Assembly: GCA_003132305.1 (NCBI GenBank)
Contig: PKXJ01000032.1
Span: 377,275-441,274 of the forward strand
DNA length: 64,000 bases
Direction: 5' to 3'
Source of the DNA: Acidimicrobiaceae bacterium
GTDB lineage: Bacteria; Actinomycetota; Acidimicrobiia; Acidimicrobiales; RAAP-2
Each line of letters begins with the position of its first letter. Position 1 is the first letter of the stretch. Below, in pieces: positions 22,303 through 29,946 of this stretch. The notes beneath the pieces are model-generated. The model saw only the letters and a program-made list of their open reading frames with translations, searched no databases and was not told the DNA's origin. The translations under genes and the position numbers were made by a program.

Positions 22303-24039
22303 GTGCCCGGCATGAGTCAACAGTCGATTGATTTGACTAATGCCCTCGTGGTGTCGATGTTCCGTCACTCACTATTTGTTACCGGGTTGCTGTGGCTGGC
22401 GGTTATTGCGGTCGTAATGATGTTCGTCCTGGTAGTTACGCGAAACATATTCCGCTTCAACTTGTCCAGCGAAGGTGTCAACGAACCGCGGGCTCGAACC
22501 TACCTCCGCTGGGCCTTCGGAGCTATCTGGCTCTTCGATGGGGTCCTTCAGTTTCAAGCGTCCATGCCACTCGGCCTGGCCAACAACGTCGTCGCGCCGC
22601 TGACGACGAACACGCCCTCGTGGCTTCACGCGTTGATGGAGCACGGCATCTTCTTGTGGAACAGTCACCCCATCTCGCTGGCCGTAGGAGTGGCGTGGTT
22701 GCAAGTTGGCATTGGCCTGGTGCTGCTGGTCTCGAACGGACGGACCGGTCGGATTGTTGGTGGGGTTTCGGCCGCGTGGGCGGCTCTCGTTTGGCTTATC
22801 GGCAATGGTGCCGGCGGCATCTTCGTGACCGGCGCGTCATTCTTATTTGGTTGGCCGGGCGCGTCGTTCTTCTACGTCTTTGCCGGCGTGTGGATGGCCG
22901 TCAATCCCGAAACGTTTCGACGGTGGTTCTCTTTCGTCACCCTTCGAGTCTTGAGCGTGATCGTGGCGTTCGCGACGCTGCTGCAGTTTCTGCCCTCAAC
23001 CGAGTTCTGGCACGGTGGAAACGCCAACGCCCTCACCACCATGACCACGTACATGACCAAGATCGCCCAACCGCACGCACTGACGTGGCTCGTTCATCAC
23101 GTTGGTTCGCTCGCGGCGACGATGGGCGGCGGCTTTAACATCGTGATCATTTTGTGGCTGGGGGTCTGTGCGGTGGGTCTGTGGATGGCGGCCGCGCGAC
23201 GGTGGCGATGGCCGGTGTGGACCTTCGTCGTTGGGTGCGTTTTCTTCTGGCTCGTGTCCGAAGACACGTCAATCTTCGGCGGACTCTCCACCGACGTGAA
23301 CTCCCTGCTTCCCCTCGCGGTCCTCACGTGGTGTGCGTCACCGGCGCTGAGCGGACTTGAACCACGAGAGCGTCGACTGCCTCGTGAAGTGACGAGTAGC
23401 GCCGGTGCCGTGATAGCAACGTTTGCTTCGGCCATGATTCTCTTTTCGACGGTATTGATGGCCGGCACCACCTTCGCGAGCGCCGAGACCACGCTCTACC
23501 AGGCCCATAATGGTCCAGCGTCCGCAACGACGACGAAAGCAACCCCGTTTACTCTCACGGATCAGTTCAATAAGACGTACTCCCTGGGCGAACATAAAAA
23601 ACACGTCACGCTCTTGACCTTTCTCGATCCGCGTTGCTGGACCGACTGCCCGTTGCTGGCGAAACAGCTCGAGCACGTGCGCGCAGAGTTGTCCGCCAAC
23701 GCGAATCTCGACATCGTCGCGGTAGCGGCTGATCCGTACCACGAACACCTCTCAGACCTTCGTCACTTCATTGCGGTTCGCGGACTCGCCCACGTGAAGA
23801 ACTTTTACTTCGTGACGGGAAAGCTCTCGAGGGTTCGCAAGGTGTGGGCGTCGTACGGAATCGGTGTTTCCATGACGTCAGCGGACAAGATGAGCATTCA
23901 CTCCGATTTCATGTTCATTATCACCACAAAGGGCGAATTACGTTGGATTATCCCCGACGATCCACTGTCGAGTTCGTCGGGCGTCGCGTCGGCCGTCTCT
24001 GAGCTGCGCGGTCTGTTGGCGGATGAGGGCGTGAACTGA
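22303..24039 (+). CDS. Polytopic membrane protein fused to a SCO1/SenC-type copper chaperone domain
   Basis: 578 residues. Residues 1-395 form about nine to ten membrane helices of no family I can name, with several histidines near helix ends (SHPIS, HGGN, LVHHVG). Residues 412-578 are a thioredoxin-fold SCO domain with the copper motif CWTDCP (Cys445, Cys449) and the distal His533 in SIHSDFMFI. SCO proteins deliver copper to the CuA site of oxidase subunit II. The GTG start has AAAGGAG 7 nt upstream. First gene of the oxidase island; a second, stand-alone SCO gene lies 9 kb downstream on the minus strand. Confidence 0.85.
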   Translation: MPGMSQQSIDLTNALVVSMFRHSLFVTGLLWLAVIAVVMMFVLVVTRNIFRFNLSSEGVNEPRARTYLRWAFGAIWLFDGVLQFQASMPLGLANNVVAPLTTNTPSWLHALMEHGIFLWNSHPISLAVGVAWLQVGIGLVLLVSNGRTGRIVGGVSAAWAALVWLIGNGAGGIFVTGASFLFGWPGASFFYVFAGVWMAVNPETFRRWFSFVTLRVLSVIVAFATLLQFLPSTEFWHGGNANALTTMTTYMTKIAQPHALTWLVHHVGSLAATMGGGFNIVIILWLGVCAVGLWMAAARRWRWPVWTFVVGCVFFWLVSEDTSIFGGLSTDVNSLLPLAVLTWCASPALSGLEPRERRLPREVTSSAGAVIATFASAMILFSTVLMAGTTFASAETTLYQAHNGPASATTTKATPFTLTDQFNKTYSLGEHKKHVTLLTFLDPRCWTDCPLLAKQLEHVRAELSANANLDIVAVAADPYHEHLSDLRHFIAVRGLAHVKNFYFVTGKLSRVRKVWASYGIGVSMTSADKMSIHSDFMFIITTKGELRWIIPDDPLSSSSGVASAVSELRGLLADEGVN

Positions 24040-24487: not shown

Positions 24488-24566
24488 AAGTTTTCACACT
24501 AGTGACGCTGTTCGTTAATCTTGGTTCGGAGTCCCGTTGGGGGCGCCTCGTCGCAAGGAGTGGAAA

Positions 24567-25247
24567 ATGTCAAAGGAAGGGAGACTGGCAACGGTTCTTG
24601 GACTCTTCTTGGTGGCTGTAGCTCTTGTGGTGTGGGCGGTCGCCAGTTTCATAACGCCGGGCGTACCCGGCGGGGTCGTTAACTACACCAACACTCAAGC
24701 CGCCGGACAGCCGGTAAACCTAACGGTCGAGACCGTTGGATCGATCGGATTCGGTGCTCATCCGTCGTGGGTCTCGTACCTCACAAAGGATCCGCACACA
24801 GGCAAGTGGGTCCACGAGACGTCGTGGGAGTTGCCAGCTAACACGGTGGTTCACATGACCATCTATCAGTACGACAGCGGCAGCCCGCTCCGTAATCAGG
24901 AGTGGGGTCAGGTCCAAGGAACGATCGGCGATAACGCCACCTTGAACGGGAAGACCTTTAGTTCGTACAACTCGAACACTGGCACCGGCGTCGGCCACAC
25001 CTTCGCCGTACCGCAACTCAACTTGGTCGTGCCGCTGGTCGGCGTCGGTGGGAGCAACATCTGTGGGACCGCACCGTGTCTCATAAATTTCCCTCACAAC
25101 ACCGAAACCTTCAGTTTCAAGACACCGGGACCAGGTAGTTACAACTGGCAGTGCTTCGTGCCCTGTGCGTTGGGTTATTTGTTTGGTAATGGAGGAGCGA
25201 TGTCAGCGCAGAACTACATGGGCGGCGAGTTGGAAGTGGTGCAGTAG
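24567..25247 (+). CDS. Membrane-anchored cupredoxin-like protein
   Basis: 226 residues: an N-terminal anchor helix (about 8-28) and an exported domain. The domain has the order expected of a rusticyanin/sulfocyanin- or oxidase-CuA-type cupredoxin: GVGHTFAVPQ (His144) and a late GSYNWQCFVPC loop (Cys196, Cys200) followed by GNGGAM. The CxxxC spacing is that of CuA, but the CuA His is absent (Gly at that position), and the blue-copper CxxPGH motif is also not met. It may carry electrons to the oxidase or help assemble CuA. The ATG has AAGGAG well placed; the coxB-like gene follows after 2 bases. Confidence 0.72.
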   Translation: MSKEGRLATVLGLFLVAVALVVWAVASFITPGVPGGVVNYTNTQAAGQPVNLTVETVGSIGFGAHPSWVSYLTKDPHTGKWVHETSWELPANTVVHMTIYQYDSGSPLRNQEWGQVQGTIGDNATLNGKTFSSYNSNTGTGVGHTFAVPQLNLVVPLVGVGGSNICGTAPCLINFPHNTETFSFKTPGPGSYNWQCFVPCALGYLFGNGGAMSAQNYMGGELEVVQ

Positions 25248-25249
25248 TC

Positions 25250-26242
25250 ATGACCTCGGAGAACCCACCTAAGAACGACACGAATCACCTTCAACGTATA
25301 ACCGTCATCTGGATCATCGTTTCCATTATCGGTGACCTGCTGTATTGGTTCCTCGTCGGACCTCACGTGCCGCCGGGAAGGATGACCTCGACGGCGAAGG
25401 GCAATCAGTTCGACTTCAACGTGCTGTTCATTATCGCGTTTCCCGTCCTCGTCGGCATCTGGGAGTACATGTTGTACGCGGTTATCAATTGGCGATCGAA
25501 GAAAGAGGGCGTTCCCGAATCGGTGGGTGGGCCGCGGGCCGCGGAGAATAGGAAACTACAGACGTCATGGATCGCGATTACGACGGTCGTGGTCCTGCTC
25601 CTTGCGGCCTACGGCACGGTAGAAGTCATCGTGGGCAAAGGTTCCGGCGGCGGCGAAGGCCCGAACCCCATTTGGCAGCCGACCGGCGCCGTGAAGGCCG
25701 AGACCGCGGCGCTCGCGGGAAACGGGACTTGGTCGCCCAACAGCAACGAGGTTCTTCCGGTGCAGGTCATCGCGCAGCAGTGGAAGTTCACCTATCGTTA
25801 TCCAACGTTTGGGGGTTTTGAGTCTCCGTATCTGATACTGCCCAACGATACGAATATTGTGTTCAACGTGACGTCACTCGATGTGATTCACAGCTTCTGG
25901 GCGTATCAACTGGAAGTCAAAGCAGACGCCAACCCAATGGAAAACAACGTGGCGTTTACCAAAACGGAACAGTTGGGTAGTTTTGAGGTTCGCTGTAGCG
26001 AATTGTGTGGAATCTGGCACGGCGCGATGTTCAATTCTGGCCAAGTGCTCACGCCGGCGGCCTTTATGGCGTGGGCGACTAAAACCGAAGCAGCGAACGC
26101 AGTGAACACCAAGGACCTACCGCCGTTTGCCTGGACGTACGTGCCTGACGCTAATGGCTCATCCGGTGGTTACTACCCCGACGGAACGGTGACGCCGTAC
26201 AGTCCGGTAGAAGTGTACGGATCGAAGCAACCGAGTTCGTGA
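25250..26242 (+). CDS. ctaC: Cytochrome c oxidase subunit II
   Basis: 330 residues. Three hydrophobic helices (about 17-37, 55-79, 104-129) precede the exported CuA cupredoxin domain; canonical subunit II has two, so one helix is extra. The CuA ligands are complete: His214 (DVIHSFW), Cys249, Glu251 and Cys253 (RCSELCG), His257 and Met260 (WHGAM). The aromatic entry motif is AQQWKFTY. No CXXCH heme-c extension is present. It accepts electrons from an external donor and passes them to subunit I. Confidence 0.94.
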   Translation: MTSENPPKNDTNHLQRITVIWIIVSIIGDLLYWFLVGPHVPPGRMTSTAKGNQFDFNVLFIIAFPVLVGIWEYMLYAVINWRSKKEGVPESVGGPRAAENRKLQTSWIAITTVVVLLLAAYGTVEVIVGKGSGGGEGPNPIWQPTGAVKAETAALAGNGTWSPNSNEVLPVQVIAQQWKFTYRYPTFGGFESPYLILPNDTNIVFNVTSLDVIHSFWAYQLEVKADANPMENNVAFTKTEQLGSFEVRCSELCGIWHGAMFNSGQVLTPAAFMAWATKTEAANAVNTKDLPPFAWTYVPDANGSSGGYYPDGTVTPYSPVEVYGSKQPSS

Positions 26243-26300: not shown

Positions 26301-28265
26301 ATGACAATTAGCGCTGAACGACCGACGGAAGTTGAGAGCAGTCCGGTGTCCCCAGTCGCGATCCCTGAAAAAAGAGGATGGGGTAGTGGTTGGCTGAGCC
26401 AGCACCTGGGCACCGCCATACTCGGTGGATTTTTGGGCTACATCTTTGGACACTGGCTGGGGAACTACATCGCGAGCGGATACCCCTACATTGCCAACAG
26501 CGGTCAAAACTCCGTGGCCGACTTGTTGGCGTTGCTCTTCATGGTCGTTGGCTGGCTACTTGGAATTGGCGCGTTGAACTATCCACTCGCCAAGATGGTC
26601 GGTCGCGAAGCGAAGAGCGAAGTCGAGTACACGGGCTGGAGCAAGTACGTTCGCTACAACTTGGATCACAAAGTTGTCGGTTTGCAGTACGTGGTCGGCG
26701 TGCTCCTCTTCTTCTTCACCGGTGGACTACTGGCGATGGCCATTCGAACGGAGTTGCTAAATCCAACGACGCACGTCTTTAGCGCCGACACCTATATCAA
26801 GATCGTGAGTGAGCACGGAACGATCATGATGATGATGGCAACGTCCGTCGTTGTTGGACCACTTGGCAACTACTTCGTGCCACTCATGATTGGTGCTCGT
26901 CGTATGGCGTTCCCCCGCATTGAAGCGTTCAGTTTTTGGACCTTCCTGGTGGGTTACGCGGTGATTTTTTCAGCGCTGCCCTACGGCGGATTCCCGACCG
27001 GATGGACGGGCTACGCACCCTTGCAGACCCAAGCAGGACCGGGAATGATCTCCTACCTGTTCGGCTTTGCCATCATCGGCGTGGGCATGATGACCGCCGG
27101 ATTCAACATTGCGATCACGATCGTGAACTATCGTGCGCCCGGAATGACGTGGAGCCGCGTGCCAGTGTTCGTATGGGGAATCCTGTCGACGGCGGCCCTG
27201 TTGGTCTTGGCGACGCCCGTTCTCTTCTCCGCTGGACTCTTTGGGATTCTCGACAAGACGGTGCAAACGGCCTTTTTCGTGTCCGAACACGGTGGAAGTT
27301 CGTACCTGTGGGAGAACTTGTTCTGGTTCTTTGGACACCCCGAGGTCTACATCATGGCGTTGCCCGGTTTTGGCATCATCGGCGAAATAATTCCGGTCTT
27401 TACGAGAAAACCACTCTTTGCCTATCGGATCGCGGCCGCGGGAATGATCGGAGTGGCCCTGCTGTCATTCTTCGTGTGGCAACACCACTTGTTCCAGAGT
27501 GGCATCGACCCAGATATGCGTCCGCTCTTCATGCTCACCACGGAACTCATCTCCATTCCCACCGGATTTATATTCCTCGTGGGAATGGGCACGCTCTATC
27601 GAGCGAAAATAAGATTTGAAGTGCCGATGTTGTTCTGCATGGCCGTGTACTTCAACTTCCTGATTGGCGGCATATCAGGGGTCTTCCTGTCGGACGTTCC
27701 AGTGAACGTGACGGTGCACGGAGGCTTCTTCGTACTCTCGCACTTCCACTACACAATCATGGGGGGCCTGATCTTCGCGTTCTTCGCGGGTCTGTACTTC
27801 TGGTTGCCCAAGATGACCGGACGGACGATGAACAAGAAGCTCGGACTGTGGCATTTCTGGACCATGTTCGTGTTCTTCAACTTGACGTTCTTCCCCATGT
27901 TCATCATTGGTCTGCTCGGACAACCCCGTAGGGTCTTCACGTACGCAAAGAACTTGCAAAGCTGGAATGACTTTTCGTCCGTCAGTGCGTTTCTCTTGGG
28001 TGCTTCATTCCTCATCTTCATTGCTAACTTGATGTGGTCGCTGTTCATCAAGCCGCAGAAGTCACCGGCGAACCCGTGGGACTCTTTGGGGCTCGAGTGG
28101 CAGACGGCGACGCCCATTCCTCGCCACAACTTTGACCGTATTCCGGTGATCATGAACGACCCCTATCACTACAGCGAAGTCGGAGCTCCGGCGCTGGCTA
28201 ACTTTGGCGACGGCGGGACGGTTCATTCGGATAGTTCAACAGTTTCCAGTGATCCAGTTGAGTAG
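26301..28265 (+). CDS. ctaD: Cytochrome c oxidase subunit I (heme-copper oxidase catalytic subunit)
   Basis: 654 residues, about 100 longer than usual owing to two extra N-terminal helices. Heme and copper ligands are complete: His172 (SEHGTIM) and His483 for the low-spin heme, His481 (LSHFHY) for the high-spin heme, His346 (FFGHPEVY), His395 and His396 (WQHH) for CuB; Tyr350 is the cross-linked tyrosine and Glu348 matches E286 of type A1 enzymes. The D-channel entrance aspartate is replaced by Arg201 (GARRMAFPR), the following Asn pair reads EA, and the K-channel lysine is Ile424 (PTGFIF). An A-type oxidase with atypical proton paths. Confidence 0.95.
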   Translation: MTISAERPTEVESSPVSPVAIPEKRGWGSGWLSQHLGTAILGGFLGYIFGHWLGNYIASGYPYIANSGQNSVADLLALLFMVVGWLLGIGALNYPLAKMVGREAKSEVEYTGWSKYVRYNLDHKVVGLQYVVGVLLFFFTGGLLAMAIRTELLNPTTHVFSADTYIKIVSEHGTIMMMMATSVVVGPLGNYFVPLMIGARRMAFPRIEAFSFWTFLVGYAVIFSALPYGGFPTGWTGYAPLQTQAGPGMISYLFGFAIIGVGMMTAGFNIAITIVNYRAPGMTWSRVPVFVWGILSTAALLVLATPVLFSAGLFGILDKTVQTAFFVSEHGGSSYLWENLFWFFGHPEVYIMALPGFGIIGEIIPVFTRKPLFAYRIAAAGMIGVALLSFFVWQHHLFQSGIDPDMRPLFMLTTELISIPTGFIFLVGMGTLYRAKIRFEVPMLFCMAVYFNFLIGGISGVFLSDVPVNVTVHGGFFVLSHFHYTIMGGLIFAFFAGLYFWLPKMTGRTMNKKLGLWHFWTMFVFFNLTFFPMFIIGLLGQPRRVFTYAKNLQSWNDFSSVSAFLLGASFLIFIANLMWSLFIKPQKSPANPWDSLGLEWQTATPIPRHNFDRIPVIMNDPYHYSEVGAPALANFGDGGTVHSDSSTVSSDPVE

Positions 28266-28283: not shown

Positions 28284-28940
28284 ATGACTGACACGATCAA
28301 GAACTCTGACCGTCCGAGCAGCACTCCCGAGGAGCAGGAGTTCGAACTACGCGCTCACATTGGCTCGATCTGGAGCGGTGGTCGCCTGTTCATCGCGATG
28401 TATACCTTTCTGGACGCGTCGTTGGTCTTCAGTTATTTCTACCTTCGCTCGAGTAACAATGGCTTGCTCTGGCGGCCCAATCACGTCACTGCGCCCACGA
28501 GTTATGGGTGGGGGATCTACACCATGATCCTGCTCATGGGGCTCATGGCGTTTTACGGTCAGTCGCGTCTTCGTAAGGGCAGCGTGTTCGACTGGCAGAT
28601 TGCGGGCTGGATTGGTGTGGGGGCTGGTCTGGTGGCACTCATGCTGCAGATTTGGGAGTTCACGGCGGTGCCGTTCTACCCGGGATCGAGTGGCTACGCC
28701 TCAACGTTCATTGGCTACTCGGTGATGAACATCGGCACGCTGGTGGTCGTGACGTATTGGCTGGAGACGGCGCTCGCTCGGTCCTACCGACTGCGTAAGG
28801 AACTCGGCGGCGTCAGTCCCGTGCTATCCATGCACGAGTCAGCACAGTCCTTTCGCGCCAACGTCGCCGCGATGACGTACTTCTTTGGATTCATTGCTCT
28901 CGCCAGCACCCTTCTTTTTGCCATGTTTTACTTGCTGTAG
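28284..28940 (+). CDS. ctaE: Cytochrome c oxidase subunit III
   Basis: 218 residues with five membrane helices, matching short bacterial subunit III forms that lack the first two helices. Typical segments are GGRLFIAMYTFLDASLVFSYFY, FIGYSVMNIGTLVVVTYWLETA and the final MTYFFGFIALASTLLFAMF. Follows subunit I by 18 bases. Confidence 0.9.
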   Translation: MTDTIKNSDRPSSTPEEQEFELRAHIGSIWSGGRLFIAMYTFLDASLVFSYFYLRSSNNGLLWRPNHVTAPTSYGWGIYTMILLMGLMAFYGQSRLRKGSVFDWQIAGWIGVGAGLVALMLQIWEFTAVPFYPGSSGYASTFIGYSVMNIGTLVVVTYWLETALARSYRLRKELGGVSPVLSMHESAQSFRANVAAMTYFFGFIALASTLLFAMFYLL

Positions 28941-29014: not shown

Positions 29015-29128
29015 ATGCTAGGTGTTGACAGTTATATTGGACCTCAAGTACAGACGCTGGTCGTTCTCTTGGGCACATTCTTCGGTGTCATTATTTGGCT
29101 GTTTTTCCAGCGCAAACACTCCGAGTGA
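29015..29128 (+). CDS. 37-residue single-helix membrane protein, likely small oxidase subunit
   Basis: ATG at 29015 with GAGGTGG 5 nt upstream, stop at 29126-29128. The product (MLGVDSYIGPQVQTLVVLLG, then TFFGVIIWLFFQRKHSE) is one membrane helix with a basic tail, in size and pattern like CcoQ or subunit IV-type small oxidase subunits. The GTG of the next gene overlaps its stop codon (GTGA), which implies translational coupling and argues that it is real. Too short for usual gene finders. Confidence 0.75.
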   Translation: MLGVDSYIGPQVQTLVVLLGTFFGVIIWLFFQRKHSE

Positions 29129-29946
29129 CGGCAGAGCTCGCGCAGAGATTTCAATCACGAAACAAGGTTTACGCCCGTAACTTTTTCGCAACCGCGGGAA
29201 TTGTCCTGTGGATACTCTTTCTCGTACCGCCGCTACTCGCGTGGACCAAGAGCTACGAGTACGTCCAGGCAATTCAGTTTTGTTTCTTCGCCGTGGTCAT
29301 CCCCTTCTTGTTGGTGGCCGGTGGCCCGTGGCGGTGGTTGGGACTGACGTCGAACGAACCATTCCGCTTTGGTAGTGACGGCGTGCTGGAGGCTCCAGCG
29401 AAGCCGCTTCTCTTCGATCGGATCGCGATTTCGAGGGCTCAGCGCAAAGGTCATCGACGGCCGGTGGTGTTGGCCATCATTTTCATCGGCCAGTCGATAG
29501 TTTGGCGATCGTCACCCGTCGTCGACGCAATGGTTCGTCACACTTGGCTTTCGGTTTTCGAATCGTTGGCGTTGATCGTGGCCGGTGTCTTTTTGTGGCT
29601 GGACTTGGTGGAAGCTCCACCGTTTCGACCCGGCGCCACCCGACCGTACCGTATTGGAGTGTCGACGCTTTCCATGTGGACCGTCTGGGTGCTGGCGTAC
29701 TTGATGGCGATGTCGCAGAACTCGTGGTATCGCAATATTCACCACGTGGCCGGACACGGACTATCGCAATCGGCCGATCAACAATTCACGGCGGGCGCGA
29801 TGTGGTTCATCACCGCCGCGGCTTTTCTTCCGGTGATTTTCTCGAACTTGAACCGCTGGCTCAAATCCGAAGACGACCCCGATGAAGAGCTCTATCAACT
29901 CGTTCGCCGGGACCCCACCAGGGGCTTCTTTGGCACGAATCCCTAG
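29125..29946 (+). CDS. CtaG-like membrane protein (divergent oxidase assembly factor)
   Basis: 273 residues from the GTG at 29125, about six to seven helices. It aligns by eye with the CtaG protein encoded at 34954: both have a PFLLVAGGPW / PVLIVAGAPW helix and a late SADQQ / FADQQ segment followed by a Trp-rich helix. The histidines of the CtaG HMxxH motif are replaced here (AIQFCF), so copper handling may differ. A TTG 30 bases upstream is in frame but lies inside the 37-residue gene. Likely assists oxidase assembly (inference). Confidence 0.72.
   Translation: MTAELAQRFQSRNKVYARNFFATAGIVLWILFLVPPLLAWTKSYEYVQAIQFCFFAVVIPFLLVAGGPWRWLGLTSNEPFRFGSDGVLEAPAKPLLFDRIAISRAQRKGHRRPVVLAIIFIGQSIVWRSSPVVDAMVRHTWLSVFESLALIVAGVFLWLDLVEAPPFRPGATRPYRIGVSTLSMWTVWVLAYLMAMSQNSWYRNIHHVAGHGLSQSADQQFTAGAMWFITAAAFLPVIFSNLNRWLKSEDDPDEELYQLVRRDPTRGFFGTNP

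Follow-up and report, generated by a model that had tools for sequence, protein, structure and literature searches.

Basic residues at the D-channel mouth and glutamates within both channels in a clade of A-family oxidases: a possible rebuilding of proton paths

The oxidase operon in the window

The window, by which we mean the whole stretch of 64,000 nucleotides analysed from an Acidimicrobiaceae bacterium, harbours a set of heme-copper oxidase genes in which a gene for a SCO1-domain protein is followed by genes in the order cupredoxin-cox2-cox1-cox3-like-ctaG. The genes and the features of cox1 are given below. Residue numbers of the R. sphaeroides enzyme were taken from the 1M56 sequence, in which D132, E286 and K362 fell in place on checking.

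22303..24039, + strand: protein with a long N-terminal part (probably membrane, judged by eye) and a SCO1/SenC domain for copper delivery (PF02630, residues 414-545)
24537..25247, + strand: membrane-anchored cupredoxin-like protein (invariant residues, weak fold matches)
25250..26242, + strand: cox2, its CuA motif CSELCGxxHxxM apparently intact (PF00116; TIGR02866 below cut-off)
26301..28265, + strand: cox1, 654 aa, A-family heme-copper oxidase subunit I of a subgroup with a basic residue at 132, Glu139 and no channel Lys
26406..26477, + strand: extra N-terminal helix 1 of cox1, residues 36-59 (AlphaFold2/DSSP)
26514..26567, + strand: extra N-terminal helix 2 of cox1, residues 72-89 (AlphaFold2/DSSP)
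26898..26903, + strand: Arg200-Arg201, R. sphaeroides 131-132, the D-channel mouth, normally with Asp132 (codons read directly)
26922..26924, + strand: Glu208, R. sphaeroides Asn139, the asparagine gate of the D-channel (codon read directly)
27087..27089, + strand: Met263, R. sphaeroides Ser201, upper D-channel (alignment)
27342..27350, + strand: Glu348-Val-Tyr350, with the residues corresponding to E286 and Y288, unchanged in 28/28 clade members
27543..27545, + strand: Glu415, R. sphaeroides 353, helix VIII, a proposed replacement for Lys362 (sequence alignment)
27552..27554, + strand: Ser418, R. sphaeroides Ala356 (alignment)
27570..27572, + strand: Ile424, R. sphaeroides Lys362 (alignment)
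28284..28940, + strand: membrane protein called cox3-like from its position alone (no Pfam/NCBIfam match at E 0.001)
29095..29946, + strand: CtaG, Caa3_CtaG assembly factor (PF09678)

The cox1 product (26301-28265) matched PF00115 at 428 bits, and its best NCBIfam model was TIGR02891 (557 bits, below the curated cut-off of 671). An earlier, sequence-only reading of this DNA had described an intact redox core. Alignment to R. sphaeroides 1M56 bore this out, as His172 and His483 (heme a), His481 (heme a3), His346, His395 and His396 (CuB), Glu348 and Tyr350 are all present. The AlphaFold2 model (pLDDT 84) matched R. sphaeroides aa3 (2gsm_A) with a Z of 52 and 1.2 Å over 497 residues. The same reading had proposed that extra helices mark an unusual A-family subgroup, and the two modelled N-terminal helices support this. 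Judged by hydropathy, two extra N-terminal hydrophobic segments are found in 25 of the 28 clade members and one in the other three.

Cox2 carries the motif CSELCGxxHxxM, which we take to be the CuA pattern, so that the electron donor would be a small carrier rather than quinol. As for the cupredoxin-like protein, H154, W204, C206, C210, M222 and M228 were invariant in 29/29 aligned rows. A search of Pfam and NCBIfam found no family for it, and its AlphaFold2 model was of moderate confidence (pLDDT 71), with weak matches to cupredoxin folds. Its top PDB hits, at non-significant E values of 0.34-0.65, were chains of AcoP from Acidithiobacillus ferrooxidans, likewise a membrane-anchored cupredoxin encoded with oxidase genes (PMC4059628). 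The AcoP ligand pattern C-x6-H-x4-M is however absent; the window protein has C206-x3-C210, M222 and M228, with no His between. Its Cys pair resembles that of CuA, but the second His is missing, and it may form a copper site of a kind not described before. A role as an electron-transfer or assembly partner is possible.

The order cupredoxin-cox2-cox1 was found at 24 of the 28 loci of the clade, comprising all 19 from Actinomycetota (the window, L114-L124, L034-L038, L227 and L228) and five of the nine from Chloroflexota (L191-L195). A cupredoxin beside the oxidase could not be upheld for the clade as a whole, as L196-L199 have neither cupredoxin nor cox2 in the roughly 1.4 kb of upstream sequence covered. 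In three of these four Chloroflexota loci, a SCO1-like stretch lies upstream of the Glu139-type cox1 instead. The window genome has a second, canonical A-family oxidase with GAPDMAFPRLNAL and PTGIK, which the earlier reading did not mention. Two CtaA-like loci were also present in this genome, so heme A synthesis is probably available.

Channel residues and classification

At the mouth of the D-channel, Arg201 aligned with D132 of R. sphaeroides 1M56, confirming the Asp-to-Arg change first read from the sequence. A second claimed change, Asn-Asn to Glu-Ala, held in part. Glu208 does occupy the position of N139, but Ala209 at N140 is ordinary, Ala being the commonest residue at 140 among the tabulated oxidases that bear K362 and E286 (39/82). 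Judged by sequence, the special feature of the window cox1 is the pair formed by Asp132 to a basic residue and Asn139 to Glu.

This signature was found in 28 distinct sequences, 19 from Actinomycetota and nine from Chloroflexota, which are referred to below as the E139 clade. Position 132 is Arg in 24, Lys in three and Gly in one, and position 139 is Glu in 27 and Gln in one. At position 201 we found Met (19), Leu (6), Ile (1), Asn (1) and one other residue. The remaining D-channel residues are mostly retained in the clade (N121 in 27, N207 in 27, Y33 in 28, S142 in 22 and E286 in 28), and the window protein itself has E286, N121, N207, Y33, T359 and Y288. A sequencing or frame error was rejected because 28 different sequences share the signature, and a pseudogene on the grounds that every ligand is present and the operon is conserved.

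In the K-channel, the reported Lys-to-Ile change was also upheld, Ile424 aligning with K362 of 1M56, and Gly361 occupies the position of S299. The idea that the loss of Lys is peculiar to the window protein was rejected; 88 of the 189 sequences tabulated at that stage had no Lys362, and 86 of these 88 fall in one clade. Three further marks, absent from the earlier reading, are Glu415 (353), Ser418 (356) and Met263 in place of Ser201. Position 356 helps outline the K-channel in simulations (PMC10341450), and position 353 would lie approximately one turn beyond it on helix VIII. Glu353, Thr359 and Tyr288 are each present in 28/28 members of the E139 clade. Six actinobacterial sequences (L176, L230, L231 and L233-L235) combine a K362-to-Leu change with E353 and S356 within the canonical A1 branch, and have no extra N-terminal helix.

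We then compared the window protein with the oxidase types defined previously. The A1 type is defined by twelve channel residues (P. denitrificans numbering; PMC3084760), five of which differ. Asp124, Asn131 and Ser193 of the D-channel are replaced by Arg201, Glu208 and Met263, and Lys354 and Ser291 of the K-channel by Ile424 and Gly361. The other seven are represented by Asn190, Asn269, Tyr130, Ser211 and Glu348 (Asn113, Asn199, Tyr35, Ser134 and Glu278 of the D-channel) and by Thr421 and Tyr350 (Thr351 and Tyr280 of the K-channel). The A2 mark, a Tyr for the D-channel Glu in the motif YSHPxVY (PMC8361435), is absent, the window sequence being FFGHPEVY with Glu348. The alternative K-channel of B-type enzymes has Thr, Ser and Tyr for Lys354, Thr351 and Ser291 (residue order partly from Table 2 of PMC12901375), where the window protein has Ile424, Thr421 and Gly361. 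In C-type enzymes the active-site Tyr is on another helix with none at Tyr280, whereas Tyr350 occupies the A/B position. A B- or C-type identity was rejected on the basis of fold, sequence matches and these channel residues. TIGR02891 was the best model and the best PDB matches were A-family proteins, and we assign the window cox1, on sequence and fold, to the A family but outside the named functional types (A1, A2, B, C).

Compared with the canonical A1 aa3 oxidases of R. sphaeroides, P. denitrificans and bovine origin, the window protein shares the fold, the redox ligands, E286, Y288, N121, N207 and T359, and differs in D132R, N139E, S201M, K362I, S299G and the two extra N-terminal helices. 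Two additional N-terminal helices also define the two-extra-helix (2TM) COX1 group of PMC8239418, and the window cox1 has both. According to that study, iron oxidisers of the group have a type 0 CtaA; loss of the K-channel within archaeal family A had already been described there, as had the two-extra-helix group itself. The two extra helices and Glu353/Ser356 in place of Lys362 are shared with this group and with a sister clade that bears E286 and no Lys362. Ten sister-type loci that we examined (L125-L133 and L040) display the same cupredoxin-cox2-cox1 order as the window. The sister clade differs in that D132 is kept in its 21 rows, and N139 in 22/22 rows so grouped. In the open literature, to which our search was for the most part confined, we found no description of a clade with D132 to basic and N139 to Glu, nor of the Glu353/Ser356 partner, which may be among the supplementary K-channel variants of PMC8239418.

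Joint changes, phylogeny and distribution

The residues were tabulated for 201 distinct sequences after removal of duplicates (L039 duplicates L013, and L038 duplicates a locus of G493); L042 and L232 were dropped, with no frame fitting the motif filter. Asp132 occurs with Asn139 in 166/166 sequences, and 34 of the 35 sequences without Asp132 are also without Asn139. The 132/139 pairs in these 35 are R-E (23), K-E (3), G-E (1), R-Q (1), E-S (3), G-S (2), R-S (1) and E-N (1). The K-channel gave a similar picture, with Glu353 in none of 107 sequences bearing Lys362, and Glu353 together with Ser356 in 93 of 94 sequences without it. A single sequence, L065, is the exception in both cases, having Glu132 with Asn139 retained and having lost Lys362 without gaining Glu353, and this counts against the reading of rebuilt proton paths developed below. 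The near exclusiveness of both joint changes (132/139 and 362/353) supports it.

A tree was calculated with the channel columns masked for 120 rows, consisting of all 88 Lys-less sequences of the 189 and a sample of Lys-bearing ones. The main Lys-less clade (86 rows), the E139 clade (28) and the sister clade with D132 and E286 (21) each received a UFBoot value of 100. A mixture-model tree of 72 rows agreed, with 100/99 for the E139 clade; both trees hold A-family rows only. In the trees, each of the joint changes arose twice independently. A single origin was rejected both for the loss of D132 (p-AU 0.0004, with five of six Bacillota sequences used) and for the loss of Lys (p-AU 0.0002), although the groups tested were named after an earlier tree had been seen, which weakens these tests. 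In an independent-pair sign test, there were only two informative pairs per joint change, too few to reach significance. The six Bacillota sequences (L047, L185, L186 and L188-L190) form a separate lineage without D132, with Glu, Gly or Arg at 132 and Ser139 in 6/6. All six have Trp at the position of Arg482, and four copies are found in G296.

These results bear on the possibility of ordinary drift, according to which the fold tolerates the changes, other surface groups take up protons, and pumping is normal. Surface groups other than Asp132 can indeed feed the D path in enzymes without subunit III (PMC8361435). On the other hand, proton uptake by the D path is blocked in model enzymes that carry D132N (PMC4321873, PMC8361435). 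Drift would also not be expected to give near-fixed joint replacements and a supported clade in which Glu139 and Glu353 are conserved, and we consider it improbable.

The distribution of the signature was examined in genomes, with residues read only in the best matches. The relatives had been drawn with queries from the same family, and many are sequences from metagenome-assembled genomes (MAGs). Among 296 genomes of the class of the window, 12 had a match above 700 bits and all 12 carry the signature; the matches of up to 546 bits that were read retain Asp132. Seven of 396 genomes of the phylum carry it, four of them already among the 12, as do nine of 201 genomes of Chloroflexota, the phylum of the Ktedonobacterales MAG L040. 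The signature was not seen among matches at E <= 1e-150 in 199 genomes of Bacillota, the phylum of L047. In 398 Pseudomonadota genomes there was no match at E <= 1e-155, a result of little weight as the search had no positive control. A tblastn search of plasmids gave 970 matching records, and the 12 listed among them were 40-42% identical; ten of these 12 are annotated as oxidase subunit I and two are unannotated. In a scan of named genomes, the matches listed were largely ordinary COX1, but L034 (isolate bog_723), L035 and L036-L039 among them are clade members, the last four being from Actinomycetes/Actinobacteria MAGs.

One clade member (L011, genome G014) is from Acidimicrobium ferrooxidans ICP-T, an iron oxidiser with an optimum of pH 2 (PMC3035218). 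The other COX1 of this strain (L247) is canonical, with D132, N139 and K362 in GAPDMAFPRLN, GHPEVY and PTGIK. Cells grown on iron show a-type spectra (PMC5143472), and because the canonical oxidase is also present, this signal is not assignable to the Glu139-type enzyme.

Within one genus, the Glu139 type was present in five of 14 genomes and a D132-bearing type in nine of 14, the two types being only about 40% identical. When L115, L117 and the window were compared with L125, L126, L128, L131 and L132, several loci turned out to have the same gene for a SCO1-domain protein and the same small ORFs at their flanks, a picture that would fit replacement of the oxidase cassette in situ. Two genomes, G488 (L160 and L221) and G875 (L192 and L242), each hold a Glu139 type and a D132-bearing K-less type, indicating that the two types are more than alternative forms of a single gene.

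Possible proton routes

The sequence-only reading concluded that proton uptake must use other routes. The standard entry residues of the D and K channels are indeed absent, but the word "must" is too strong. The same channels may be rebuilt, because E286, N121, N207, Y33, T359 and Y288 are kept and carboxylates are present at 139 and 353. Glu139 in 27/28 members, and E286, Y33, T359 and Y288 in 28/28, are expected of a path in use. We favour, at a probability of roughly 0.47, a functional, CuA-fed A-family oxidase whose proton paths have been rebuilt rather than simply lost, and in which pumping is reduced or absent.

In the D path of such an enzyme, the acid would have shifted inward from Asp132 at the mouth (now Arg) to the gate position Asn139 (now Glu208), below the conserved Glu286. 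On the K side, the protonatable side chain would have been relocated on helix VIII from Lys362 (now Ile) to Glu415 (353), nearer the active site, with Ser418 (356) one turn below; Glu415 is proposed for this role from its placement in the alignment. Electrons would enter via CuA, possibly with help of the cupredoxin of the operon, and the protons forming water would still be supplied by the cytoplasm, along one of these carboxylate routes or both, with reduced or absent pumping. Such an enzyme would be a fitting second oxidase for conditions with little redox span to spare. In the oxidation of iron in acid, for example, the span would be too short to afford pumping. No rusticyanin (TIGR03095) was found in the window genome, which counts against this reading.

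The effects of mutations in ordinary oxidases provide a framework for these proposals. N139D, N139S and N139T retain O2 reduction and lose pumping (PMC12901375), alterations close to the D mouth reduce the stoichiometry or cause uncoupling (PMC8361435), and in K362M the reduction of heme a3 is blocked (PMC12901375, PMC8361435, PMC4321873). The mutants N139D and D132N/N139D share with the window protein an acid at 139, and the double mutant also the absence of an acid at 132; the window protein differs in being natural, with Arg at 132, Glu at 139 and no Lys362. The D132N/N139D double mutant, a close engineered parallel, is reportedly recoupled.

An Arg at the D mouth should repel protons, and this speaks against a rebuilt D path. 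In the E139 clade, the upper D-path residues Ser201 (to Met/Leu) and Ser197 (to Ile/Val/Ala/Met) are also mostly non-polar, which argues for a closed one. The main rival to rebuilt paths is that the D path is sealed, with Arg200/Arg201 and Glu208 forming a charged plug, and that a single K-like path through Glu415, Ser418, Thr421 and Tyr350 serves the enzyme as in ba3; pumping may still occur at about half stoichiometry. The B-type ba3 of Thermus thermophilus also has no Lys362 and has an Arg (Arg100) at the D132 site with an inactive D path, and enzymes of the B and C families use the K path for the protons that form water and nevertheless pump approximately 0.5 H+/e- (PMC12901375, in part Table 2). 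Glu353 in 28/28 members is also consistent with a single K-like path. However, E286 and Y33 are kept in 28/28 and N121 and N207 in 27/28 members, and all four are present in the window protein, whereas ba3 has I, F, V and I at these positions (Table 2 of PMC12901375); overall, the sequences of ba3 and the window protein match only weakly (phmmer E about 1e-10). Gly132 is paired with Glu139 in one member and Arg132 with Gln139 in another, so a fixed salt bridge between 132 and 139 is not required. Taking both sides into account, we regard a sealed D path as somewhat unlikely.

A further alternative is that, both cytoplasmic entries being blocked, the chemical protons enter on the exit side from the acidic exterior. 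The D132N enzyme has been interpreted as receiving its protons by leakage through the exit channel (PMC4321873). An enzyme fed in this way would, however, consume no cytoplasmic protons and, given an outside electron donor, conserve no energy, and Glu139 and Glu353 would need no conservation. Uptake from outside is thus highly improbable.

The coupling of O2 reduction to proton pumping in cytochrome oxidase is an old problem that has been approached largely through mutants of Asp132, Asn139 and Lys362, and a natural lineage in which the same positions are fixed differently, together with partner changes, provides a test from evolution. Our results suggest that evolution rewired a proton pump, with loss of the channel-entry residues and acids placed deeper in the same helices or channels. 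A broader proposal, which we put forward tentatively and with more doubt than confidence, is a natural class of A-family oxidases in which both channels are rebuilt on carboxylates (Glu139 for Asp132, Glu353 for Lys362) and which operate as non-pumping or low-gear enzymes near the thermodynamic limit. If true, these would be a natural counterpart of the engineered decoupled and recoupled mutants, and an oxidase for respiration near that limit. The full pump assumed for every genomic A-family oxidase may be wrong in these bacteria. Acidimicrobium ferrooxidans is a cultured type strain grown on iron, and direct testing is therefore possible.

Two further marks of the clade lie beside the redox centres. 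Gln394 (R. sphaeroides 332), which adjoins the CuB histidines, is Gln in 28/28 members, and at Glu171, next to the heme a ligand His172 (R. sphaeroides His102), an acid is found in 19/28. Both residues might tune redox potentials.
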